Of a DNA stretch of 64,000 nt, positions 1,247 through 64,000 are shown in pieces (position 1 is the first letter of the stretch; each line of letters begins with the position of its first letter). Below the pieces are notes generated by a model, which was given only the letters and a program-made list of their open reading frames with translations, had not been told where the DNA came from and made no database searches. Origin of the DNA: Streptomyces sp. XM83C (GTDB taxonomy: Bacteria; Actinomycetota; Actinomycetes; Streptomycetales; Streptomycetaceae). Where the stretch lies: positions 1 through 64,000 of the forward strand of contig NZ_JALLGL010000002.1 in NCBI RefSeq assembly GCF_023072675.1, in the 5' to 3' direction. The translations under genes and the position numbers were made by a program.

Positions 1247-3223
1247 GTGTCAGACGTCCGTGTGATCATCCAACGCGATTCCGAGCGGGAAGAGCGCGTG
1301 GTGACGACGGGCACTACGGCCGCCGACCTCTTCGCCGGCGAGCGCTCGATCATCGCCGCGCGCGTGGCCGGTGAGCTGAAGGACCTCTCGTACGAGCTGT
1401 CCGACGGCGACGAGGTCGAGGGCGTCGAGATCTCCTCCGAGGACGGTCTCAACATCCTGCGCCACTCCACCGCGCACGTCATGGCCCAGGCCGTGCAGGA
1501 GCTGTTCCCGGAGGCGAAGCTCGGCATCGGCCCGCCCGTCAAGGACGGCTTCTACTACGACTTCGACGTCGAGAAGCCGTTCACGCCCGAGGATCTCAAG
1601 GCCATCGAGAAGAAGATGCAGGAGATCCAGAAGCGCGGGCAGAGGTTCGCCCGCCGCGTCGTCACCGACGAGGCCGCCCGCGAGGAGCTGGCCGACGAGC
1701 CGTACAAGCTGGAGCTGATCGGCCTCAAGGGCTCCGCCTCCTCCGACGACGGCGCGGACGTCGAGGTCGGCGCCGGCGAGCTGACGATCTACGACAACCT
1801 GGACGCCAAGACCGGCGAGCTGTGCTGGAAGGACCTCTGCCGCGGTCCCCACCTGCCCTCCACCCGCCTCATCCCGGCGTTCAAGCTGATGCGCAACGCC
1901 GCCGCCTACTGGCGCGGCAGCGAGAAGAACCCGATGCTCCAGCGCATCTACGGCACCGCGTGGCCGTCCAAGGACGAGCTGAAGCAGTACCTGGACTTCC
2001 TCGCCGAGGCCGAGAAGCGCGACCACCGCAAGCTCGGCAGCGAACTGGACCTGTTCTCCATCCCGGAGCAGATCGGCTCCGGCCTCGCCGTCTTCCACCC
2101 CAAGGGCGGCATCGTCCGCCGGGTCATGGAGGACTACTCGCGGCGCCGCCACGAGGAAGAGGGCTACGAGTTCGTCTACACCCCGCACGCGACGAAGGGG
2201 AAGCTCTTCGAGACCTCGGGCCACCTGGACTGGTACGCCGACGGCATGTACCCGCCCATGCAGCTCGACGAGGGCGTGGACTACTACCTCAAGCCCATGA
2301 ACTGCCCGATGCACAACCTGATCTTCGACGCGCGCGGCCGTTCCTACCGCGAACTGCCGCTGCGCCTGTTCGAGTTCGGGACCGTGTATCGGTACGAGAA
2401 GTCGGGCGTCGTGCACGGCCTCACCCGCGCCCGCGGCTTCACCCAGGACGACGCGCACATCTACTGCACCCGTGAGCAGATGTCGGACGAGCTCGACAAG
2501 ACGCTCACTTTCGTGCTGAACCTGCTGCGCGACTACGGCCTCACCGACTTCTACCTGGAGCTGTCGACCAAGGACCCGGAGAAGTTCGTCGGCTCCGACG
2601 AGGTCTGGGAGGAGGCGACCGAGACCCTGCGGCAGGTCGCCGAGAAGCAGGGCCTGCCCCTCGTGCCCGACCCGGGCGGCGCCGCGTTCTACGGCCCGAA
2701 GATCTCCGTCCAGGCCAAGGACGCCATCGGCCGCACCTGGCAGATGTCGACGATCCAGCTCGACTTCAACCTGCCGGAGCGCTTCGACCTGGAGTACACG
2801 GCGGCCGACGGTACCAAGCAGCGTCCGGTCATGATCCACCGTGCGCTGTTCGGCTCGATCGAGCGGTTCTTCGCGGTGCTGCTGGAGCACTACGCCGGTG
2901 CCTTCCCCGCCTGGCTGGCACCGGTCCAGGCCATCGGCATCCCGATCGGCGACAGCCACGTCGAGTACCTGGAGAAGTGGGCCGCCGCGGCGAAGGCCAA
3001 GGGCCTGCGCGTCGAGGTGGACTCCTCCTCGGACCGTATGCAGAAGAAGATCCGCAACGCCCAGAAGCAGAAGGTGCCGTTCATGGTCATCGCGGGCGAC
3101 GAGGACATGGGCCACAACACCGTGTCCTTCCGCTACCGCGACGGCTCCCAGGAGAACGGCATCCCCTTCGACGAGGCCATCGCGAAGATCGCGAAGGTCG
3201 TCGAGGAGCGGGCGCAGATCTGA
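1247..3223 (+). CDS. thrS: Threonine--tRNA ligase
   Basis: Cytoplasmic class II synthetase that charges tRNA-Thr and edits Ser-tRNA. 658 residues. Domains in order: a TGS domain (about 1-65), the editing domain with an [11 protein letters not shown] (HxxxH) motif and the SSDDGADV region, the catalytic core with [15 protein letters not shown] (motif 2) and [15 protein letters not shown] (motif 3), and an anticodon-binding domain (about 560-658). The PMNCPMH segment carries the active-site Cys that binds zinc. The start chosen is GTG 1247, with AGGAG at 1236-1240 six bases upstream; the frame extends to an ATG at 1199 but lacks a ribosome binding site there. It is followed by a strong terminator, so it is probably monocistronic or the end of a unit with the upstream gene. 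Confidence 0.98.
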
Positions 3224-3237
3224 CCCGGCGCGTGGGC

Positions 3238-3268
3238 GGCCCCCGGTGACCTGATCTCGCCGGGGGCC
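3238..3268 (+). terminator. Rho-independent terminator of thrS
   Basis: Perfect 9-bp stem GGCCCCCGG (3238-3246) with CCGGGGGCC (3260-3268), 13-base loop, followed by a pyrimidine-rich tail (TTGCCCTTCCCTT). It starts 15 bases after the thrS stop. Confidence 0.85.
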
Positions 3269-3294
3269 TTGCCCTTCCCTTCACCCGGACGCCA

Positions 3295-3300
3295 TATGCT
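3295..3300 (+). promoter_or_regulatory. -10 box (TATGCT) of the HIT gene, leaderless geometry
   Basis: TATGCT ends six bases before the ATG at 3307, so transcription would start at or next to the A of the start codon. No ribosome binding site lies between, which supports a leaderless mRNA. Confidence 0.55.
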
Positions 3301-3306
3301 GCACGC

Positions 3307-3855
3307 ATGACGAGTGAGCCGGAGCAGCAGATCGGAGTGGGGACGCAGGACGCGTTCCAGCGCCTGTGGACGCCCCACCGGATGGCCTACATCCAGGGAG
3401 AGAACAAGCCGAGCGGCCCGGGCGCCGACGACGGCTGTCCCTTCTGCTCCATCCCGGCCAAGTCCGACGAGGACGGTCTGATCGTCCGCAGGGGCGAGCA
3501 TGTGTACGCGGTGCTCAATCTGTACCCGTACAACGGCGGCCACCTGATGACCGTCCCCTACCGGCACGTCGCCGACTACACCGACCTCACCGACGCCGAG
3601 ACCGCCGAGCTGGCCGAGCTGACCAAGCAGGCCATGACGGCGCTGCGCACCGCGTCCGGCGCCCACGGCTTCAACATCGGCATGAACCAGGGCGCCGCCG
3701 CCGGCGCGGGCATCGCCGCTCACCTGCACCAGCACATCGTGCCCCGCTGGGGCGGCGACACCAACTTCATGCCCGTCGTCGGCCACACCAAGGTGCTGCC
3801 GCAGCTGCTGGCCGACACCCGCAAGATGCTGGCGGACGCCTGGCCCCCGGCCTGA
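3307..3855 (+). CDS. HIT-family protein, probable Ap4A phosphorylase
   Basis: 182 residues. The histidine triad HLHQHIVPRW sits at residues 139-148; the middle His is the nucleophile of this superfamily. A CPFCS motif near residue 45 resembles the zinc site of GalT/HIT proteins. The gene order thrS - HIT - (other genes) - pgsA - acyltransferase - pimA matches mycobacteria, where the neighbour Rv2613c is, to my knowledge, an Ap4A phosphorylase; a role in removing Ap4A made by aminoacyl-tRNA synthetases such as ThrS is an inference. Cytoplasmic; no signal peptide. It converges on the unknown minus-strand gene, with only 30 bases between the stops. Confidence 0.85.
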   Translation: MTSEPEQQIGVGTQDAFQRLWTPHRMAYIQGENKPSGPGADDGCPFCSIPAKSDEDGLIVRRGEHVYAVLNLYPYNGGHLMTVPYRHVADYTDLTDAETAELAELTKQAMTALRTASGAHGFNIGMNQGAAAGAGIAAHLHQHIVPRWGGDTNFMPVVGHTKVLPQLLADTRKMLADAWPPA

Positions 3856-3885
3856 CGCCCGCCCGCACCCGCGCCCGACGCGCCG

Positions 3886-5541
3886 CTACGCGTCGTACAC
3901 GTCGGCCTTCTTCGGCGCCACGTCCTGCACCGCCGCGCTGAGGGAGGCCGACCGCGCGCCGAACTTCTCGGTGTCGACGCCGTTCTCCTTCAGCACCTTC
4001 AGCGCCGCCGAGTGCACCACACGCAGCACCGGCGTCGCCGCCCGCAACGCGTCGTCCGCCATGAACCGGTGCCGCCACGGCTGGTCCGCCCACGCGTGCC
4101 GCAGCCCGAACGGCTCCGGCAGGGCGATGCCGCCGCCCAGCCAGTTCAGCAGCGGCGGATACCAGGTGAGCGGCGCCCGCACGGCGAGCCGTACCACCTC
4201 GTCGGTGCTGACCAGCGGCAACTTCACCGTCCGCGTCTCCCACGGCTTGAAGGACTTCGTGACCGTCTTCGTGGGGGCCTCCGGCTTCGCGGTGAACAGC
4301 GGGTTCACCGGACCGAGCGCATGCCCGGTCACCTCGATGCGCAGCGTCTCGTACAGCACCGTCACCGTGATCAGCATGGTGATGACCAGCTGGCCGTCCC
4401 ACAGCGTCCACTGCACGCCCAGATAGTGCCGGTCGCCCGCGCCGAACTGCTGCTTGTTGCAGATCTCCTGTATGGCGTGCGGCTTGACCTGGTAGTCCTC
4501 CACGTCCGTGCCGTCGGGCCGGGCGACCGCCGTGGCGTTCTCGCCGATCGGCGTGACGATCCAGTGCCGTATGGACGGGCGGGGGAAACCGCCCGTGTTC
4601 AGTGGGCCGCGCTCCAGCATGCGCAGCTGGTCATGGATCGCCCGTATGACGTCCCAGCTGCGGAACGGGTGGATCTCACGGTCGGGATCGGCCGGGACCA
4701 GATCCTCCGCGAGCTGCCAGGAACCCCATCGGGTGCCCATGCCGAGGACGCCCTTGGGGCCGGCGTAGAAGACGGAGTTCGACTGCTGCTCGGCGCTGAG
4801 CCTGGCCAGGGACTGGCGCAGCGACTCGGCGGCGGTCTCGCGCGGACTGGTCGGCACCGCCTCGGGCACCTTCGCGCCGACGCTGCTCCCGGACAGCAGG
4901 CCGTCCCAGCGCTCCCGCAGATCGCGGGCGGTCCTCTCGCAGACGCGGCGCGCCCAGAACCAGCCGATGACCGGCATCACCACCGACGCACGCGCGTACC
5001 ACGCCCAGAAGCCGGTGAACGGCATCCTGACCAGGAACAGCACGGCGAGGATGCCCACCCCGGCGAGAAGCGCCGTCGCCAGGGCGGAGGCCCGCCGGTC
5101 GGTGGTCCTGCCGGTCTTCTGGCGGATCTGGAAGACCAGCAGCCAGCCCAGGAAGCCGGGCAGGAACAGCAGCCCGCACACGACGCTGATCGCGGTGAGA
5201 CGGTTGTCGCGGGCGCGGCGGATGTTGTTGGCGGCGAGGCAGTGCTCGACGACCATCTGAGGTTCGGTGCCGAACGACTGGATGAGCGGGGCGCGGCCAC
5301 TGCCCAGCATGCGGTCCACCACCGCGCGGGAGAACGCCTCACCCAGATTGGGACGGAAGATCGTGGCCCAGGAGCGGCCCTCCTTCACCGTCGTCTTGTG
5401 CCACTCGTTGTCGGCCTTCTTGATGTCCTGCACCGGGCTGTCCCGGTAGGCCGCCGAGGCCAGCGCGAAGGTGGCCGTATGGCCTCCGTCGCCGGTGCGC
5501 GGCACCTGCGGTCCGAACGCGTCGCCGTAACCGCTCTCCAC
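3886..5541 (-). CDS. Membrane protein of unknown function with a DNA-damage-type promoter
   Basis: 551 residues from GTG 5541, which has GGGGAA six bases upstream; GTG 5547 and TTG 5562 are in-frame alternatives. I recognise no family. Residues 1-110 are soluble. Two hydrophobic stretches follow: SVVCGLLFLPGFLGWLLVF near 120 and a pair around ATALLAGVGILAVLFLV and SVVMPVIGWFWA near 160-200. A C-terminal soluble part of some 340 residues has another hydrophobic strand (LVITMLITVTVLYETL). No enzyme motif is seen. It reads convergently to the HIT gene and lies downstream of the EF-G-like gene on the same strand, but the gap of about 200 bases holds its own promoter, which matches the PafBC / RecA-independent damage consensus. 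That makes an induced membrane or envelope function in the damage response plausible, but this is inference. Confidence 0.75.
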   Translation of the reverse strand: MESGYGDAFGPQVPRTGDGGHTATFALASAAYRDSPVQDIKKADNEWHKTTVKEGRSWATIFRPNLGEAFSRAVVDRMLGSGRAPLIQSFGTEPQMVVEHCLAANNIRRARDNRLTAISVVCGLLFLPGFLGWLLVFQIRQKTGRTTDRRASALATALLAGVGILAVLFLVRMPFTGFWAWYARASVVMPVIGWFWARRVCERTARDLRERWDGLLSGSSVGAKVPEAVPTSPRETAAESLRQSLARLSAEQQSNSVFYAGPKGVLGMGTRWGSWQLAEDLVPADPDREIHPFRSWDVIRAIHDQLRMLERGPLNTGGFPRPSIRHWIVTPIGENATAVARPDGTDVEDYQVKPHAIQEICNKQQFGAGDRHYLGVQWTLWDGQLVITMLITVTVLYETLRIEVTGHALGPVNPLFTAKPEAPTKTVTKSFKPWETRTVKLPLVSTDEVVRLAVRAPLTWYPPLLNWLGGGIALPEPFGLRHAWADQPWRHRFMADDALRAATPVLRVVHSAALKVLKENGVDTEKFGARSASLSAAVQDVAPKKADVYDA

Positions 5542-5628
5542 GGTCACTTCCCCACCCCCCAACGCCGCACTGTCGCTTCTGCGGCCTTCCCGACTTCCTT
5601 GCTGCGCACACCTGTTGATCAGGTCATC

Positions 5629-5651
5629 AGCGTATCCGCAGGTACTGACAG
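5629..5651 (-). promoter_or_regulatory. RecA-NDp (PafBC-type) promoter of the unknown membrane protein
   Basis: On the minus strand CTGTCAGTA (5651-5643), exactly 8 bases, then TACGCT (5634-5629). The published actinobacterial consensus is tTGTCRgtg-N8-TAnnnT; the first and last bases of the upstream box differ. The -10 box lies 80-90 bases before the gene start, on the correct strand. Confidence 0.65.
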
Positions 5652-5654
5652 CCC

Positions 5655-5684
5655 GTCGGCGGACGATCGAAACCGCCCGCCGAC
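5655..5684 (-). terminator. Possible terminator of the EF-G-like gene
   Basis: 8-bp stem GTCGGCGG (5655-5662) with CCGCCGAC (5677-5684), loop of 14 bases, about 60 bases past the stop on the minus strand. No U-tract; weak. Confidence 0.4.
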
Positions 5685-5745
5685 GCGGTGGGACAACGGC
5701 GTGAACCGGAACACCGGCACGCCTCGCGCGTGCGCCGGGCGCGAA

Positions 5746-7944
5746 CTACGAGGCCTGGCGCTCCTGTTCGCGCAGCTTCTCCGCGATCTGCGCCGGCATC
5801 GGCTCGTGCCGCACGTACCGGCGGCTGAAGCGTGCGGTGCCGTGCGACAGGGACCGCAGATCGACGGCGTACCGGCCGATCTCGATCTCCGGCACCTCGG
5901 CGCGGACGAGCGTGCGCCCGCCGGGCGTCTGCTCGGTGCCCAGCACCCGTCCGCGCCGCCCGGACAGGTCGCTCATCACGGCGCCGACGTAGTCGTCGCC
6001 GACGAGGACGCTGACCTCGGCGACCGGCTCCAGCAGATGGATCTTCGCGTCGGCGGCGGCCTCCCGCAGCGCGAGCGCCCCCGCCGTCTGGAACGCGGCG
6101 TCGGAGGAGTCCACCGAGTGGGCCTTGCCGTCCAGCAGCGTCACCCGCACGTCGATCAGCGGATGGCCGGCGGCGACGCCCTTCGCGGCCTGCGCGCGCA
6201 CCCCCTTCTCCACGGACGGGATGAACTGGCGCGGCACCGCACCGCCGACGACCTTGTCGACGAACTCGATGCCGGAGCCGTTCGGCAGCGGCTCCACCTC
6301 GATCTCGCAGATCGCGTACTGGCCGTGCCCGCCGGACTGCTTCACATGCCGTCCGCGGCCCGCCGACCTCGTCGCGAACGTCTCCCGCAGGGACACCTTG
6401 TGCGGTACGACGTCCACCTGGACGCCGTAGCGGGTGCGCAGCCGCTCCAGCGCGACGTCCGCGTGGGCCTCGCCGAGGCACCACAGCACCACCTGGTGGG
6501 TGTCCTGGTTCTGCTCCAGGCGCATGGTGGGGTCCTCGGCGACCAGCCGGGCCAGGCCCTGGGAGAGCTTGTCCTCGTCGGCCTTGCTGTGCGCCTGGAT
6601 CGCCAGCGGCAGCAGCGGGTCGGGCATCTCCCACGGCTCCATCAGCAGCGGGTCGTTCTTCGGCGACAGGGTGTCCCCGGTCTCGGCGCGGGCGAGCTTG
6701 GCCACGCACACCAGATCGCCGGCGACGGCATGGGTGACGGGCCGCTGCGTCTTGCCGAACGGTGTGGACAGCGCCCCGATCTTCTCGTCGACGTCGTGGT
6801 CCTCGTGGCCGCGGTCGGTCAGGCCGTGCCCGGAGACATGGACGGTCTGGTCGGGCCGGAGCGTCCCGGAGAAGATCCGGACGAGTGAGATCCGGCCGAC
6901 GTACGGGTCGGAGGAGGTCTTGACGACCTCGGCGACGAGCGGGCCGTCGATGTCGCAGGGCTTCAGCTCGCGCGGCTTGCCGTCGATGGTGGTGACGGCC
7001 GGGGTGGGGTGTTCGAACGGCGTCGGGAAACCGCGGGTGATCAGGTCGAGCAGCTCGACCGTGCCGATGCCCTGCCGGGCGCCCTCCGCGGCCGGCGCGG
7101 CGGCCAGCACCGGGAAGAAGGTGCCCCGGGCCACGGCCCGCTCCAGGTCCTCGATCAGGGTCTTCAGTTCGACCTGCTCCCCGCCGAGGTAGCGGTCCAT
7201 GAGGGTCTCGTCCTCGCTCTCGGCGATGATGCCCTCGATGAGCCGGTTGCGGGCGGTCTCCATGTCCGGCAGCCGGTCCGGGCCGGGCTCGGTCTCCACG
7301 CGCTCGCCGGAGGAGTAGTCGAACAGCTTCTGCGTCAGCAGGCCGACCAGCCCGGTCACGGGCGCGTGCCCGTCCGGGCCCTGCGGACCGTGCAGCGGCA
7401 GGTACAGCGGCAGGACGGCGTCGGGGTCGTCACCGCCGAAGGCCTCCGCGCAGATCCTGGTCATCTCCTCGAAGTCCGCGCGGGCGGCCTCCAGGTGCGT
7501 GATCACGATGGCGCGGGGCATGCCGACGGCCGCGCACTCGTCCCACACCATGCGGGTCGAGCCGTCCACGCCGTCGGAGGCCGAGACGACGAAAAGGGCC
7601 GCGTCCGCCGCTCGCAGACCGGCCCGCAGTTCCCCGACGAAGTCGGCGTATCCAGGGGTGTCCAACAGGTTGATCTTGATGCCGTCCCAGGTGACGGGCA
7701 CCAGGGAGAGCTGTACCGAGCGCTGCTGTCGGTGCTCGATGTCGTCGTGGTCGGAGACGGTGCCGCCGTCCTCCACGCGGCCCGCCCGGTTCAGCGCCCC
7801 CGCGGTCAGCGCGAGAGCCTCCACCAAGGTGGTCTTGCCGGATCCGGAGTGGCCGACCAGCACCACGTTCCGAATGGACTGGGGGTGGTCGGCCGCCACT
7901 GCCCTGCCGGCGGCTCCGGGGTGGGTGTGTGCCTTGTCGCCCAT
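5746..7944 (-). CDS. EF-G-like translation factor (EF-G2 type) with a degenerate GTPase site
   Basis: 732 residues, the full five-domain length of EF-G. The start is ATG 7944, with GGGAGG seven bases upstream; the frame extends to 7989 but without a better site. G1 is GHSGSGKT at residues 31-38. G3 is DTPGY (95-99), with Tyr where EF-G has the catalytic His. The switch I RGIT signature is replaced by RSVQ (75-78), without the Mg-binding Thr. At the G4 place (NKxD) there is THLE. Domains III-V are well preserved (KSGGHGQYAICEIEVEP, GHPLIDVRVTLLDG). In mycobacteria the second EF-G (EF-G2) is reported to bind nucleotide but lack ribosome-dependent GTPase activity, and this protein fits that picture. 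The true EF-G (fusA) would lie elsewhere, by the str operon. Confidence 0.9.
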   Translation of the reverse strand: MGDKAHTHPGAAGRAVAADHPQSIRNVVLVGHSGSGKTTLVEALALTAGALNRAGRVEDGGTVSDHDDIEHRQQRSVQLSLVPVTWDGIKINLLDTPGYADFVGELRAGLRAADAALFVVSASDGVDGSTRMVWDECAAVGMPRAIVITHLEAARADFEEMTRICAEAFGGDDPDAVLPLYLPLHGPQGPDGHAPVTGLVGLLTQKLFDYSSGERVETEPGPDRLPDMETARNRLIEGIIAESEDETLMDRYLGGEQVELKTLIEDLERAVARGTFFPVLAAAPAAEGARQGIGTVELLDLITRGFPTPFEHPTPAVTTIDGKPRELKPCDIDGPLVAEVVKTSSDPYVGRISLVRIFSGTLRPDQTVHVSGHGLTDRGHEDHDVDEKIGALSTPFGKTQRPVTHAVAGDLVCVAKLARAETGDTLSPKNDPLLMEPWEMPDPLLPLAIQAHSKADEDKLSQGLARLVAEDPTMRLEQNQDTHQVVLWCLGEAHADVALERLRTRYGVQVDVVPHKVSLRETFATRSAGRGRHVKQSGGHGQYAICEIEVEPLPNGSGIEFVDKVVGGAVPRQFIPSVEKGVRAQAAKGVAAGHPLIDVRVTLLDGKAHSVDSSDAAFQTAGALALREAAADAKIHLLEPVAEVSVLVGDDYVGAVMSDLSGRRGRVLGTEQTPGGRTLVRAEVPEIEIGRYAVDLRSLSHGTARFSRRYVRHEPMPAQIAEKLREQERQAS

Positions 7945-8388
7945 GATCCTGCCTCCCGTGCACGGTGAGGTCACTGTGGGCGCGGACATGCGGGACCGCG
8001 TGCTGGGCGGCTCCGGTGACGCCCGCGTTCTTCGAGCTTTCCACTCCCGTCACGGTGCGTCCATACGACGGACGGCTCGGCGGACGGGGGCCGCCCGTCC
8101 CCGGGAGGTGGGGACGGACGGGGGAGGGGCGCAGGGCGCGGCACCACACGGCACCACGGGTGGGTGCGGTCCGTCCGCCCGGTTCGCGGGCGGCGTGGCA
8201 GGACGGGGTGGGTGCGGTCCGTCCGCCCGGTTCGCGGGCGGCGTGGCACGACGGGTGGGTGCGGTCCGTCCGCCGGATCCGCGGGCGCGGAACGGGTGCC
8301 CGTCCGCCGTCGGCACGCGCGCGTGGCTACGATGGGCCAGCCGGTGGCCAGCAGGGGCCGCACGGCCACACCGACCCTCGGGAAGGCC
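7945..8388. other. 444-base divergent gap between EF-G-like gene and pgsA
   Basis: No gene is supported here; the open frames are GC-driven. The part next to 7944 should hold the minus-strand promoter of the EF-G-like gene. The right half holds the hairpin repeat at 8158-8291. The pgsA ribosome binding site GGGAAGG lies at 8380-8386. Confidence 0.7.
8158..8291 (+). repeat. Three direct repeats of 47-48 bases, each with a hairpin
   Basis: The unit beginning TGGGTGCGGTCCGTCCG starts at 8161, 8209 and 8256 (spacings 48 and 47). Copies 1 and 2 are nearly identical over their full length. Each contains CCGCCCG-GTTCG-CGGGCGG, a perfect 7-bp stem with a 5-base loop. Copy 3 is decayed after the first 19 bases (CCGGATCCGCGGGCGCGG). 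The repeat lies about 100 bases upstream of the pgsA start and would be in its 5' leader or promoter region. Confidence 0.85.
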
Positions 8389-9066
8389 ATGCTGAACAAG
8401 TACGCGCGTGCTTTCTTCACGCGTGTTCTCACACCGTTCGCCGCGTTTCTCATCCGCCGCGGAGTGAGCCCCGACACGGTCACGCTCATCGGCACCGCCG
8501 GTGTGGTCGCGGGCGCGCTGGTCTTCTACCCCAGGGGCGAGTTCTTCTGGGGCACGGTCGTGATCACGCTGTTCGTCTTCTCCGACCTGGTCGACGGCAA
8601 CATGGCCCGCCAGCTGGGCCGCTCCAGCCGCTGGGGCGCCTTCCTGGACTCCACGCTCGACCGGGTCGCCGACGGGGCGATCTTCGGCGGCTTCGCCCTG
8701 TGGTACGCCGGGAGCGGGGACGACAACGCGCTGTGCGCGGTGTCCATTTTCTGTCTGGCCAGCGGCCAGGTCGTGTCGTACACCAAGGCACGGGGCGAGT
8801 CGATCGGCCTCCCGGTCGCCGTCAACGGCCTGGTGGAGCGCGCCGAGCGCCTGGTGATCTCCCTGGTCGCCGCCGGTTTCGCGGGGCTGCACAAGTTCGG
8901 CGTGCCCGGCATCCAGTACCTGCTGCCGGTGGCACTGTGGATCGTCGCCGTCGGCAGCCTGGTCACCCTGATCCAGCGGGTGGTCACGGTCCGCCGCGAG
9001 TCCGCCGAGGCGGAGGCCGCCGCCGCCCGTGAAGAGGACTCCCACGGGAGGGAGACGGCGAAGTGA
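8389..9066 (+). CDS. pgsA: Phosphatidylinositol phosphate synthase (CDP-alcohol phosphatidyltransferase)
   Basis: 225 residues, integral membrane. The signature Dx2DGx2ARx8Gx3Dx3D is complete near residues 66-95 (DLVDGNMARQL...GAFLDSTLD), and several hydrophobic helices follow. In actinobacteria the enzyme in this place joins CDP-diacylglycerol to inositol 1-phosphate to give PI-phosphate; the neighbours patA and pimA, which act on PI, support that over phosphatidylglycerophosphate synthesis. The start is ATG 8389, with GGGAAGG three bases upstream. A longer frame back to 8164 runs through the hairpin repeats and is rejected. The stop overlaps the next start (GTGA). Confidence 0.9.
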   Translation: MLNKYARAFFTRVLTPFAAFLIRRGVSPDTVTLIGTAGVVAGALVFYPRGEFFWGTVVITLFVFSDLVDGNMARQLGRSSRWGAFLDSTLDRVADGAIFGGFALWYAGSGDDNALCAVSIFCLASGQVVSYTKARGESIGLPVAVNGLVERAERLVISLVAAGFAGLHKFGVPGIQYLLPVALWIVAVGSLVTLIQRVVTVRRESAEAEAAAAREEDSHGRETAK

Positions 9067-10049
9067 GCGCCCAGGAGCGGCTGACCGACGCGCTGTACGG
9101 CCTCGGCTGGGGCACCGTGAAGAAGCTCCCCGAACCGGTCGCCGTGCGCCTCGGCCGCACCATCGCCGACCTCGCCTGGAAGCAGCGCGGCGCGGGCGTA
9201 CGGCGCCTGGAGAGCAACTACGCGCGCGTGGTGCCCGGCGCCGGCCCCGAGCGGCTCGCCGAACTGTCCCGCGCGGGCATGCGCTCCTACCTGCGCTACT
9301 GGATGGAGTCCTTCCGACTGCCCGCCTGGAGCGACGAGCGGATCAAGAACGGCTTCGCCCCCGCGGACGTGCACCACCTCGTCGACGGCATGGCCGCCGG
9401 CAAGGGCGTCATCCTCGCCCTGCCCCACCTCGCCAACTGGGACCTGGCGGGCGCCTGGGTCACCACCGAGCTGGGCATCCCGTTCACCACGGTCGCCGAG
9501 CGGCTGAAGCCGGAGACCCTGTACGACCGGTTCGTCGCCTACCGCGAGGGCCTCGGCATGGAGGTCCTGCCGCACAGCGGCGGCTCCGCCTTCGGCACGC
9601 TCGCGCGCCGCCTGCGCGACGGCGGCCTGGTCTGCCTGGTCGCCGACCGCGACCTGTCCGCCTCCGGCGTCGAGGTGCGGTTCTTCGGCGAGACGGCCCG
9701 GATGCCCGCCGGCCCGGCGCTGCTCGCCCAGCAGACCGGCGCACTGCTGCTGCCGGTCACCCTCTGGTACGACGACTCCCCGGTCATGCAGGGGCGTGTC
9801 CATCCGCCGGTCGCGGTGCCCGAGTCAGGTACGCGCGCGGAGAAGACGTCTGCCATGACACAGGCGCTGGCCGACGCCTTCGCCACGGGGATCGCCGAGC
9901 ATCCGGAGGACTGGCACATGCTGCAGCGGTTGTGGACCGCCGACCTCGACCCGGCCAAGGCACCCGCCCCGAGGAGCGCCCAGGAAGCGGCTCCGCCCGA
10001 GGCGGAGACCTCCGGGCGGTCCGACGGGGCCGAGAGGCCGGCCTCGTGA
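9063..10049 (+). CDS. patA: Phosphatidylinositol mannoside acyltransferase
   Basis: 328 residues of the LpxL/HtrB-like lysophospholipid acyltransferase superfamily. The catalytic Hx4D is LPHLANWD, His122 and Asp127; a second block, CLVADRDLSASGVEVRFFG, fits the glycine- and arginine-containing substrate site. It transfers an acyl chain to the mannose of PIM at the inner face of the membrane. The last 45 residues are an acidic, Pro- and Glu-rich tail. GTG 9063 overlaps the pgsA stop by four bases and its own stop overlaps pimA in the same way, so the three genes are translationally coupled. The symbol rests on context. Confidence 0.85.
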   Translation: MSAQERLTDALYGLGWGTVKKLPEPVAVRLGRTIADLAWKQRGAGVRRLESNYARVVPGAGPERLAELSRAGMRSYLRYWMESFRLPAWSDERIKNGFAPADVHHLVDGMAAGKGVILALPHLANWDLAGAWVTTELGIPFTTVAERLKPETLYDRFVAYREGLGMEVLPHSGGSAFGTLARRLRDGGLVCLVADRDLSASGVEVRFFGETARMPAGPALLAQQTGALLLPVTLWYDDSPVMQGRVHPPVAVPESGTRAEKTSAMTQALADAFATGIAEHPEDWHMLQRLWTADLDPAKAPAPRSAQEAAPPEAETSGRSDGAERPAS

Positions 10050-11227
10050 GGATCGGCATCGTCTGCCCGTACTCCTGGGACGTACCCGGCGGCGTCCAGT
10101 TCCACATCCGTGACCTCGCCGAGTACTTCATCCGGCTCGGACACGAGGTGTCCGTCCTCGCGCCCGCCGACGACGACACGCCCCTGCCGCCGTACGTCGT
10201 CTCCGCGGGCCGCGCGGTGCCCGTGCCGTACAACGGCTCCGTCGCCCGGCTGAACTTCGGCTTCCTCAGCGCCGCCCGGGTCCGCCGCTGGCTGCACGAC
10301 GGCGCCTTCGACGTCGTCCACATCCACGAGCCGACCTCGCCCTCCCTGGGCCTGCTGACCTGCTGGGCGGCGCGCGGACCGATGGTGGCCACGTTCCACA
10401 CGTCCAACCCGCGCTCCAAGGCGATGATCGCCGCGTACGCCATCCTCCAGGCCGCGCTGGAGAAGATCAGCGCCCGTATCGCCGTCAGCGAGTACGCCCG
10501 CCGCACCCTCGTCGAGCACCTCGGCGGCGACGCCGTCGTCATCCCCAACGGCGTCGACGTCGATTTCTTCGCCAAGGCCGAGCCCAACCCCGAGTGGCAG
10601 GGCGACACGATCGGCTTCATCGGCCGTATCGACGAGCCCCGCAAGGGCCTGCCGGTGCTGATGAAGGCCCTGCCGAAGATCCTCGCCGCCCGCCCCCGGG
10701 CCCGGCTGCTGGTGGCCGGACGCGGCGACGAGAAGGAGGCCGTGGCCGGCCTGCCGGCGGAGCTGCGCTCCCGCGTCGAGTTCCTCGGCATGATCAGCGA
10801 CGAGGACAAGGCCCGCTTCCTGCGCAGCCTCGACCTGTACGTCGCGCCCAACACCGGCGGCGAGAGCTTCGGCATCATCCTCGTCGAGGCCATGTCGGCG
10901 GGCGCCCCGGTGCTCGCCTCCGACCTCGACGCCTTCGCGCAGGTACTCGACGGGGGAGCGGCCGGCGAACTGTTCGCCAACGAGGACGCCGACGCGCTCG
11001 CCGAGGCCGCAGTACGCCTCCTGGAGGACCCCGAGCGCCGCGCCGAGCTGCGGGAACGCGGCAGCGCCCATGTCCGCCGCTTCGACTGGTCGACGGTCGG
11101 CGCGGACATCCTCTCCGTGTACGAGACGGTCACGGCGGGCTCGGCGGCCGTCGCCGCCGACGACACGCCCGACGGCGACGGCTGGGGGAGCGGCCTGCGG
11201 GCCAGGCTGGGGCTGGCCCGGGACTGA
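10046..11227 (+). CDS. pimA: Phosphatidylinositol alpha-mannosyltransferase
   Basis: 393 residues, GT4 family with GT-B fold. It adds the first mannose from GDP-mannose to PI on the cytoplasmic side of the membrane. N-terminal CPYSWDVPGGVQFHIRDLA binds the acceptor. The donor site shows IGFIGRIDEPRKGL with GRGDE, and the EX7E-like motif GESFGIILVEAMSAGAPV. The length and the first 20 residues match PimA of mycobacteria closely. GTG 10046 overlaps the patA stop (GTGA). The final 40 residues are a variable, Gly- and Asp-rich tail. Confidence 0.92.
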   Translation: MRIGIVCPYSWDVPGGVQFHIRDLAEYFIRLGHEVSVLAPADDDTPLPPYVVSAGRAVPVPYNGSVARLNFGFLSAARVRRWLHDGAFDVVHIHEPTSPSLGLLTCWAARGPMVATFHTSNPRSKAMIAAYAILQAALEKISARIAVSEYARRTLVEHLGGDAVVIPNGVDVDFFAKAEPNPEWQGDTIGFIGRIDEPRKGLPVLMKALPKILAARPRARLLVAGRGDEKEAVAGLPAELRSRVEFLGMISDEDKARFLRSLDLYVAPNTGGESFGIILVEAMSAGAPVLASDLDAFAQVLDGGAAGELFANEDADALAEAAVRLLEDPERRAELRERGSAHVRRFDWSTVGADILSVYETVTAGSAAVAADDTPDGDGWGSGLRARLGLARD

Positions 11228-14447: not shown

Positions 14448-14470
14448 TTGTCAGTGCCACCCGATAGCCT
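14448..14470 (+). promoter_or_regulatory. RecA-NDp (PafBC-type) promoter of ruvCAB
   Basis: TTGTCAGTG (14448-14456), exactly 8 bases, then TAGCCT (14465-14470): a full match to tTGTCRgtg-N8-TAnnnT, the RecA-independent damage promoter of mycobacteria and Streptomyces. It lies between the yebC terminator and ruvC, with a leader of about 80 bases. Confidence 0.85.
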
Positions 14471-29264: not shown

Positions 29265-29287
29265 CTGTCAGTGGTGTGTCTTAGGGT
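29265..29287 (+). promoter_or_regulatory. RecA-NDp (PafBC-type) promoter of rarA
   Basis: CTGTCAGTG (29265-29273), exactly 8 bases, TAGGGT (29282-29287). The -10 box ends six bases before GTG 29294, so the damage-induced mRNA would be leaderless. Confidence 0.82.
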
Positions 29288-47792: not shown

Positions 47793-47899
47793 GCCGAATG
47801 GTCCACACCGACTCTTCCGTGGTATCGCCGCCCCATTGCTCCAGTGGAGTGAAACGGCGCCCCTCAAGGGGGTGATCAGGGGGTGTCGCTGCCACCTGA

Positions 47900-47970: not shown

Positions 47971-48540
47971 ATGGACAAGCAGCAGGATGCGCAAGCGTCC
48001 GACGCACGGCCCGTTCTCGAAGGCCCCGACATCGCGCGGGTACTGACCCGCATCGCCCACGAGATCGTCGAACGCGCCAAGGGCGCCGACGACGTGGTGC
48101 TCCTCGGCATCCCGACCCGAGGTGTCTTCCTCGCCCAGCGGCTCGCCGCCAAGCTGGAGCAGATCACCGAGCGCAAGGTCCCCTGCGGCTCGCTCGACAT
48201 CACCATGTACCGCGACGACCTGCGCATGCACCCGCCGCGTGCGCTGGCCCGCACCGAGATCCCCGGTGACGGCATCGACGGCAAGCTCGTCGTCCTCGTC
48301 GACGACGTGCTCTTCTCCGGCCGCACCATCCGCGCGGCCCTCGACGCCCTGAACGACATCGGGCGCCCCCGCGCGGTCCAGCTCGCGGTCCTCGTCGACC
48401 GCGGCCACCGCGAACTGCCGATCCGCGCCGACTACGTCGGCAAGAACCTCCCCACGTCGCTGCGGGAGACGGTCAAGGTCCAGCTCGCCGAGGAGGACGG
48501 TCGCGACACCGTGCTGCTCGGCGCCAAGGCCGACCAGTAG
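47971..48540 (+). CDS. pyrR: Bifunctional pyr operon regulator / uracil phosphoribosyltransferase PyrR
   Basis: 189 residues. PRPP motif [22 protein letters not shown] and the conserved ITMYRDDL. PyrR binds the leader RNA when UMP is high and reduces expression; the same protein has uracil phosphoribosyltransferase activity in other bacteria. The gene starts with ATG 47971, with GGAGG about ten bases upstream inside the hairpin. It is divergent from bldD. Confidence 0.96.
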
Positions 48541-59513: not shown

Positions 59514-59548
59514 GCGGCAGTCATACGATCAGCCCGCAGTTGTTTTTT

Positions 59549-62326: not shown

Positions 62327-62520
62327 ACTCGCGCATCCCCCCAGCGTCAACCGGTGACCGGTGCCGCCCCGCCACCCGTATGCTCGGCGCTTCCCGGTGC
62401 GACGACCGCGGCTCCTTCGGTGGAGTGCGCCCCCGCGGGGACACACGGTGAATCCGGAATGTGTGCGCCGCCGTCACCCTGATCTCGGGAGCGACCACCC
62501 GGCGCCGCACACACGCGGCG

Positions 62521-62543
62521 CTGTCAGTGGCGTTTGGTAAGAA
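62521..62543 (+). promoter_or_regulatory. RecA-NDp-like (PafBC-type) promoter of priA
   Basis: CTGTCAGTG (62521-62529), exactly 8 bases, TAAGAA (62538-62543; the next base is T). Slightly off consensus in the last position. The box ends seven bases before GTG 62551, so the mRNA may be leaderless. Confidence 0.6.
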
Positions 62544-62550
62544 TGCAAGC

Positions 62551-64000
62551 GTGAGCAGCGAGAACGGAAGCGGCAGCGACAGCGGCGAGAGCGCGCCGCC
62601 GGAGCAGCTCGCGCTCATCCGGGAGAGCGTCCGCAGGGCCAAGATGCCACGGGCCAAGCCGCGGACCTGGCGGGGCGCCGCGCTCGCGCCGCACCTGCCC
62701 GTCGCCCGGGTCCTCGTCGACAAGGGCGTCCTCCACCTCGACCGGTACTTCGACTACGCCGTCCCCGCCGAACTGGACGCCGACGCCCAGCCCGGCGTCC
62801 GGGTCCGGGTGCGGTTCGGGGCCGGACGGCACCGCGTCCGTGACGGACGCCGTGAGGGCGGCGGGCTGATCGACGGCTTCCTCGTGGAGCGGCTCGCCGA
62901 GTCCGACTACAGCGGGCCGCTCGCCGCGCTCGCCCAGGTCGTCTCACCCGAACCCGTCCTGGGCCCGGAACTCCTCCAACTCGCCCGCGCCGTCGCCGAC
63001 CGCTACGCCGGCAGCCTCGCCGACGTGCTTCAGCTCGCCGTGCCCCCGCGCAACGCGCGCGCCGAGCAGCGGCCCTCGCCCGCCCCGCTGCCCCCGCCGC
63101 GGCCACCGGCCCCCGGACCGTGGACACGGTACGAGCGGGGGGCCGCGTTCCTGGAGGCGCTGGCCTCGGGGGCCGGACCGCGGGCCGTGTGGCACGCGCT
63201 GCCCGGACCGCAGTGGAGCGAGGAGATCGCCCGCGCCGTCGCCGCGACACTCGCCTCCGGGCGCGGCGCCCTCGTCGTCGTCCCCGACGGGCGCGCCGTC
63301 AGCCGTGTCGACGCCGCCCTGACCGCCCTGCTCGGGGACGGGCGGCACGCCGTGCTCACCGCCGACGCCGGCCCCGAGAAGCGCTACCGGGAGTGGCTGG
63401 CCGTCCGGCGCGGCTCGGTGCGGGCCGTAGTCGGCACCCGCGCCGCCATGTTCGCGCCGGTGCAGAACCTGGGACTGGTCGTCCTCTGGGACGACGGCGA
63501 CGACAGCCACAGCGAACCGCACGCCCCCCAGCCGCACGCCCGGGAGGTGCTGCTGCTGCGCGCGGCCCAGGACCGGTGCGGCTTCCTGCTGGGCGGATGG
63601 AGCTGCACGGTCGAGGCCGCCCAGCTCGTCGACAGCGGCTGGGCGCGGCCCATCGTCGCCACGCGGGAGGAGGTGCGGTCCGCCGCGCCGCTCGTGCGGA
63701 CCGTCGGCGACACCGACCTCGCCCGCGACGAGGCCGCCCGCGCCGCACGGCTGCCCACCCTCGCCTGGCAGGTGGCCCGCGAAGGACTGCGCCACGGCCC
63801 GGTCCTCGTCCAGGTGCCCCGGCGCGGGTACGTGCCCCGGATGGCGTGCGCCCGCTGCCGCGAACCCGCCCGCTGCCGGCACTGCTCCGGACCACTGGAG
63901 GGACGGGACGGAGGAGCCCTGCGGTGCGGCTGGTGCGGACGGGAGGAGAGCGCCTGGCACTGCCCGGAGTGCGGCTCCTTCCGGCTGCGCGCCCAGGTGG
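62551..64000 (+). CDS. priA: PriA-like primosome protein, degenerate helicase motifs, 3' end outside window
   Basis: 483 codons visible, start GTG 62551. N-terminal 3'-end-binding domain with ARVLVDKGVLHLDRYFDYAVP. Where active PriA has the Walker A loop GVTGSGKT, there is ALPGPQWSEE; where DEEH is expected, WDDGDDSHS. Both ATPase motifs are therefore lost, though the fold is aligned up to VVGTRAAMFAPVQNLGLVV. The zinc cysteines are kept (CARCREPARCRHC ... CGWCGREE ... CPEC). It probably acts as a structural primosome or fork protein. The damage promoter upstream supports a repair role. Confidence 0.9.
   Translation, partial: MSSENGSGSDSGESAPPEQLALIRESVRRAKMPRAKPRTWRGAALAPHLPVARVLVDKGVLHLDRYFDYAVPAELDADAQPGVRVRVRFGAGRHRVRDGRREGGGLIDGFLVERLAESDYSGPLAALAQVVSPEPVLGPELLQLARAVADRYAGSLADVLQLAVPPRNARAEQRPSPAPLPPPRPPAPGPWTRYERGAAFLEALASGAGPRAVWHALPGPQWSEEIARAVAATLASGRGALVVVPDGRAVSRVDAALTALLGDGRHAVLTADAGPEKRYREWLAVRRGSVRAVVGTRAAMFAPVQNLGLVVLWDDGDDSHSEPHAPQPHAREVLLLRAAQDRCGFLLGGWSCTVEAAQLVDSGWARPIVATREEVRSAAPLVRTVGDTDLARDEAARAARLPTLAWQVAREGLRHGPVLVQVPRRGYVPRMACARCREPARCRHCSGPLEGRDGGALRCGWCGREESAWHCPECGSFRLRAQV

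Follow-up and report, generated by a model that had tools for sequence, protein, structure and literature searches.

A putative PafBC-type promoter upstream of a conserved Streptomyces membrane-protein gene and its clade-limited -26 box

Does a membrane protein of no known family take part in the response of streptomycetes to DNA damage? The question is raised by a short sequence on the minus strand of the 64,000-nucleotide stretch of the Streptomyces sp. XM83C genome analyzed here (the window), for which the original prediction proposed a RecA-independent, PafBC-dependent promoter. Mycobacterial RecA-NDp/PafBC promoters consist of a TGTCRGTG-like -26 box, 8 nt, and a TANNNT -10 element. According to PMC11804915, PafBC acts by sigma adaptation, with PafB contacting the -26 motif and ssDNA serving as the activating ligand.

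The promoter site and its gene

Read on the minus strand from 5651 to 5629, the site has the form CTGTCAGTA-CCTGCGGA-TACGCT, and the two elements are separated by exactly 8 nt. The motif with this spacing is real: the 23-mer is matched exactly once in the window and not once in 100 shuffles. Its -10 hexamer ends 81 nt upstream of the GTG at 5547. The features referred to below are the following.

3886-5547, minus strand: membrane-protein gene, 553 aa, GTG start, stop included
5548-5628, minus strand: 5' leader with a near-invariant core at 5587-5611, GTGTGC-N7-GGAAGTCGGGAA
5629-5636, minus strand: -10 element with preceding GA, GATACGCT, recognized from the orthologue regions and also present in several other genera
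5643-5651, minus strand: putative PafBC (-26) box CTGTCAGTA, recognized from pattern counts and from TGTC[AG]GT at the same offset in orthologue promoters
5654-5685, minus strand: strong hairpin (fold of 5640-5720: -38.5 kcal/mol in all, z -2.06)
5746-7989, minus strand: EF-G-like GTPase gene, upstream on the same strand
14449-14470, plus strand: same box before ruvC (positive control)
29266-29287, plus strand: same box before rarA/mgsA

We set the start of the membrane-protein gene at GTG 5547 because near relatives have methionine there. The resulting length of 553 aa replaces the 551 residues originally given, while the lack of a known family was borne out: we found no Pfam match, no NCBIfam match near the cut-off (one at E 0.098), no match in PADLOC, and in the PDB nothing of significance (two matches, E 0.26 and 0.62). 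An AlphaFold2 model built with 36 close sequences was too poor for use (mean pLDDT 45.2, pTM 0.34). Two clear hydrophobic spans lie within about 115-142 and 151-184, and the protein is presumably membrane-anchored, its large C-terminal part facing the cytosol. Its gene belongs to the core set of the Streptomyces family: it was detected in 199 of the 200 Streptomyces genomes searched, and across the wider family 118 of 121 genomes gave a match, covering all or nearly all of the length in 15 of 17 genera; one genus (g15, three genomes) gave no match and another (g18) weak matches only. The alignment found nothing in 14 genomes of a neighboring family, where a search with the single protein gave two weak matches (E 5e-4 and 9e-4). 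SCO1529 is presumably the S. coelicolor orthologue, judged from gene order and locus numbering; a search by this name found nothing in the literature covered.

Since a strong hairpin separates the EF-G-like gene from the membrane-protein gene, it is very probable that the latter has its own promoter. The hairpin itself is probably the end signal of the EF-G-like gene; a scan for T-run terminators between the two genes found none.

The leader that follows the -10 element is almost invariant in one of the two Streptomyces clades defined below (clade A, many columns at 99-100%) and recognizable in most of the other (clade B). In a scan of 16 genomes, its core was matched exactly in nine of 12 Streptomyces, once in each and always at this gene. 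One genome (G019) has a single mismatch at the gene, and two (G115 and G031) have no listed match there; matches with two mismatches were of the same order as in the reversed control. A riboswitch was rejected, given that the leader has neither an Rfam match nor a stable or covarying fold. The Rfam search of 3800-8100 with E up to 1 returned three sub-threshold matches (5412-5453, 7017-7072, and 7025-7085), none of them on the leader, five single-sequence leader folds were no better than shuffles (z -1.04 to 0.63; 0.18 for the window), and no pair changed on both sides. An upstream peptide was likewise rejected from reading the alignments, in which frame and length vary and no codon pattern is seen. 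The leader may be a binding site for a protein or small RNA.

The motif class in Streptomyces genomes

Three places in the window (5629, 14449, and 29266) fit the pattern TGTCRGT-N9-TANNNT, compared to 0.02 expected from shuffles. The other two sites are those before ruvC and rarA/mgsA, so that the strict motif accompanies two other repair genes here and not three, as had been counted. Three further sites have one mismatch (47884, 62522, and 50611). The site at 47884 precedes a reading frame at 47971 that appears PyrR-like from our reading of its translation; for the site at 62522, no plus-strand frame of at least 90 aa is listed in 62400-63400. A sigma-70 consensus scan of 5400-5900 found no promoter.

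We found 54 matches to the pattern in the XM83C assembly (6.8 Mb, 720 contigs), including the window site, compared to one for the reversed pattern. Twenty further Streptomyces genomes contained 34 to 78 matches each, with 0 to 5 for the reversed pattern. The motif is therefore strongly enriched in all 21 Streptomyces genomes scanned, among which S. venezuelae was not knowingly included. In PMC9380542, a first search is reported to have found no conservation of the M. smegmatis PafBC motif in S. venezuelae; the enrichment seems at odds with this remark, as far as other species can speak to it. By matrix score, the site upstream of the membrane-protein gene ranks 43rd of the 54, and it carries an A after TGTCAGT where G is usual.

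For each site in the own genome, one downstream reading frame was chosen by a GC rule. All proteins except that of this gene and three more were scanned, which makes 50 of the 54; Pfam served for the first ten and NCBIfam for the remainder. Even though the proteins were cut at 331 residues, so that many scores lie below full-length cut-offs, 18 of the 50 are repair, recombination, or replication enzymes by match: UvrD-like, PcrA, UvrB, Ogt, DnaG, a DEDDh exonuclease, Ung, a DEXH helicase, RuvC, RarA, RecA, RadA, DinG/YoaA, UvrA, an AddB/RecB-like nuclease, RecQ, Xth, and XseA. Non-repair genes are also represented, for example those for a molybdenum cofactor enzyme, efflux and ABC transporters, and FolC, and many proteins had no match. 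In 34 of the 54 chosen frames, the first possible start codon lies at most 10 nt from the -10 hexamer, a count that is biased toward short distances by the use of the first possible start. This suggests that the PafBC-type regulon may include many leaderless messages; the 81-nt leader of the membrane-protein gene differs from this arrangement.

As to the regulator, contig C221 encodes two WYL proteins in tandem, on the same strand as a Pup-ligase-family gene and about 2 to 3.5 kb away from it. By family and neighborhood, they are candidate PafB and PafC; the association of pafB and pafC with the Pup-ligase locus is known (PMC8223512). Separately, we observed a box of the same type before a protein with a Cas3 HD domain (L184, G000:C233:10106-10127), possibly a damage-inducible CRISPR gene.

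Conservation of the box upstream of orthologues

We fetched 153 orthologue regions (L031-L183, own genome included), of which L177 was dropped because its anchor was missed and L141 has no -10 element, leaving 151. The weakest matches of the 200 Streptomyces genomes are absent from this sample, and the most divergent orthologues are thus under-sampled. Clades A and B denote the two sides of a midpoint-rooted FastTree protein tree, in which L179 and L055 form long branches. A -10 element was found in 151 of 152 regions and mostly reads GATACGCT, in a search that required TA...T and preferred GATACGCTG; its free letters are G in 143, A in 136, C in 141, G in 131, and C in 148 of the 151.

The box TGTC[AG]GT is present at the exact offset (-16) in 46 of the 151 promoters, compared to four at all other offsets together in about 420 nt. 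When near boxes, with one of the seven letters off, are included, 64 of the 83 clade A rows carry it (39 strict, 25 near). In clade B, the box was found in seven of 68 rows, all strict, and is absent from 61; five of the seven (L124, L127, L128, L130, and L131) branch at the base of the clade, and two (L048 and L049) stand beside the box-less L132. None of 22 rows from 14 other genera has a strict box (near boxes were unscored, and two of four g20 loci were unread by the script). The 80 named loci close to the window comprise 34 with a strict box, 19 with a near box, and 27 without; S. griseosporeus, S. curacoi, and S. canus V4I20 are among the clade A species with a strict box. S. griseosporeus (90-91% identical) has an identical box, and S. 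actuosus, a close relative (87% identical), has none. Conservation upstream of homologues, proposed at the outset as a check on the promoter, thus applies to most of clade A and extends neither to most of clade B nor, in strict form, to the other genera.

The ruvC control gave a different picture. A strict box lies within 250 nt upstream of ruvC in 28 of 30 clade A genomes and in 23 of 28 readable clade B genomes (two of 30 were not anchored), whereas the membrane-protein gene in the same genomes has it in 19 of 30 and two of 30, respectively (one of 30 being unreadable). Since ruvC mostly keeps its box in both clades, the regulon appears to persist, with this member being clade-specific. The proposal that the protein is a new member of the damage response can accordingly be upheld for a clade-specific candidate and not for the gene as such, because the box is missing from 61 of 68 clade B rows and, in strict form, from all 22 of the other-genus rows while the gene and mostly the -10 element are kept. 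Nothing found here favors the suggested link of division or envelope state to repair.

Parsimony yields 12 changes of box state (strict or near versus none) on the tree. Within the clade A tree, the box letters G-15 and C-13 changed twice each, while the T positions changed 13-14 times, as often as the spacer. Averaged over columns, the counts are 8.8 (six box letters), 12.7 (spacer columns -8 to -3), 5.1 (first leader columns), and 1.7 (-10 hexamer), the last two being far below the box. These counts point to moderate selection on the box.

The main alternative is a housekeeping promoter with a strong GATACGCT -10 element, in which the box would be a passing or decaying resemblance and damage would have little or no effect. 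The frequent changes of box state and the far better conservation of the -10 element and leader would be expected from such a promoter, and S. coelicolor HrdB promoters mostly lack a conserved -35 and keep the -10 (PMC6344877). However, it would account neither for the exact register of the box, in 46 rows against four elsewhere, nor for the near-invariance of G-15 and C-13, nor for the strong enrichment of the motif before repair genes in the same genome. We regard this alternative as unlikely, though likelier than the others discussed here. We instead favor, as the probable explanation, a lineage-specific recruitment of the gene into the PafBC regulon by gain of a box in a housekeeping-type promoter. 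The original prediction of a PafBC/RecA-NDp-type promoter has good support from the sequence and its position, the genome-wide context, and the conservation found inside one clade of Streptomyces.

Origin of the promoter and relation to known systems

In eight of nine inspected rows from other genera (five of six genera), which had been picked by eye for GATAC, CTGACG lies 18 nt upstream of the -10 element and is plausibly a housekeeping -35. None of the 53 other box sites in the own genome has GAC at this place. The seven box-bearing clade B rows contain CTGACG or CTGCCG together with the box. At the corresponding place, 38 of 83 clade A rows read CCGACG and the window CGACGG; in clade A this place overlaps an arm of the upstream hairpin, whose downstream arm covers the place of the ancestral -35. 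At least four of six matches to TTGACA were found in 10 of 83 clade A rows (fewer in 73), compared to 25 of 68 clade B rows (fewer in 43); a weak -35 alone is no mark of clade A, because clade B rows are mostly weak too. Within clade A, the better -35 is present in four of 64 rows with the box and in six of 19 without it (p 0.008, a value that ignores descent).

These data suggest that an ancestral housekeeping-type promoter may have had the form CTGACG-18-TACGCT. Within the genus, a PafBC box would then have appeared between these two elements, in register with the existing -10, and would have been lost later in some lineages; one large clade would have kept it in most of its members, few of which have the old -35 intact. 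That the box came first and the -35 weakened later is a suggestion. As the -10 element is conserved almost everywhere, the box is clade-limited, and the ruvC box is mostly kept in both clades, it is probable that a PafBC box was added to an ordinary promoter and subsequently lost in places. Parsimony counts cannot separate gain from loss, so that a gain of the box, rather than its loss elsewhere, is the direction we infer; the change of promoter was presumably selected.

According to this explanation, the gene would be transcribed from its own housekeeping-type promoter. Single-stranded DNA arising from damage would activate PafBC, which would dock the main sigma factor on the -26 box by sigma adaptation, and more membrane protein would be made. 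Because the box is kept in most of clade A, the promoter in the window's species should be PafBC-activated; PafBC would thus be predicted to bind here, and DNA damage to induce the gene.

A second regulatory input is suggested by sequences in clade B. Within 300 nt upstream, the DnaA-box pattern TTNTCCACA occurs in 16 of 68 clade B rows compared to none of 83 clade A rows, with 0.14 of 68 rows expected from letter shuffles. It is also absent from the 80 named clade A loci and from 20 other-genus rows. The clade B forms are TTGTCCACA, which is the high-affinity DnaA box of S. coelicolor (PMC4285127), and the variants TTTTCCACA and TTATCCACA, to which several of the matches belong. Clade B promoters with such a sequence include those of L138, L155, L122, and L166. 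Across 392 Streptomyces genomes, a box 26-38 nt from GATACGCT was found in 27 genomes, compared to one in the reversed control; this range had been set from the offsets in an unrestricted 300-nt search, which showed the same two forward offsets. This gene accounts for 22 of the 27 loci, and the spacings there are 26 (12 loci), 37 (two), and 38 (eight) only, in two groups about one helical turn apart. The unrestricted search also gave one reverse copy, at -58 in L132. DnaA-box state changed at least four times on the tree.

The gene might accordingly read chromosome status by interchangeable routes, through PafBC in one clade and through DnaA in some other lineages, where a DnaA box upstream of the same -10 element would couple it to replication initiation. 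The clade bias, the restricted spacings at this one gene, the repeated changes, and the identity of TTGTCCACA all speak for this possibility, which is compatible with recruitment into the PafBC regulon. However, the boxes are putative, concern a minority of clade B, and are partly variants, the equal offsets may reflect descent, few independent pairs bear on a mutual exclusion of PafBC and DnaA boxes, and the window's promoter has no DnaA box (the sole match in the window is at 59545). We therefore consider the DnaA route rather improbable. Slightly more doubtful still is a bolder version, in which a single promoter would have switched repeatedly between PafBC, a sensor of ssDNA and damage, and DnaA, a sensor of replication initiation, while the -10 element stayed fixed and the leader near-invariant; the protein would then be a membrane-bound output of replication stress, a so far undescribed checkpoint-like component. 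It is very improbable that induction runs through LexA (SOS) instead of PafBC, as the SOS consensus TCGAAC-N4-GTTCGA has no match with up to three mismatches in 2875-10402, although S. venezuelae damage genes are under LexA (PMC9380542).

Recruitment into the PafBC regulon, the explanation that we favor, places the promoter beside the RecA-NDp/PafBC promoters of M. smegmatis and M. tuberculosis, which share the -26 box, the 8-nt spacing, TANNNT, and an association of the regulator genes with the Pup-proteasome locus. It differs from them in that the box here appears to be laid over an older housekeeping-type promoter and is patchy in the genus. In Streptomyces, the same promoter type precedes a gene outside classical repair, S. 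coelicolor SCO6735, which is induced 5-fold by UV (PMC5087735). In contrast to this UV-inducible macrodomain protein, the present gene encodes a membrane protein of no known family and is a candidate only. Because RecA-NDp promoters in Streptomyces, including this one before a UV-induced non-classical gene, are published (PMC5087735), the kind is already in print; the member is new as far as searches by gene name show.

The gene is a good candidate for a new damage-response gene. If it is damage-induced, the PafBC-type regulon of streptomycetes would include a membrane protein of no known family. The promoter additionally offers a natural series (no box, box with -35, box with weakened -35, and DnaA-box sequence) for the evolution of sigma adaptation, and knocking out the gene itself would be worthwhile, given that it has no family name and is found in 199 of the 200 Streptomyces genomes.

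Distant paralogues are present in Streptomyces and a related genus (for example L417, L419, L421, L422, and L423). The homology covers the membrane and C-terminal parts with E values of 1e-11 to 3e-23 in a small local search, which inflates significance; the matches were much weaker in per-genome searches. Eight proteins of this paralogue family gave no Pfam match above the cut-off and no NCBIfam match at E up to 0.1. By eye, several paralogues have longer N-termini and glycine/asparagine-rich tails, and the orthologue ends without such a tail. The tails of L417, L418, L419, L422, L421, L423, and L416 look, again by eye only, like amyloid-type signalling motifs.
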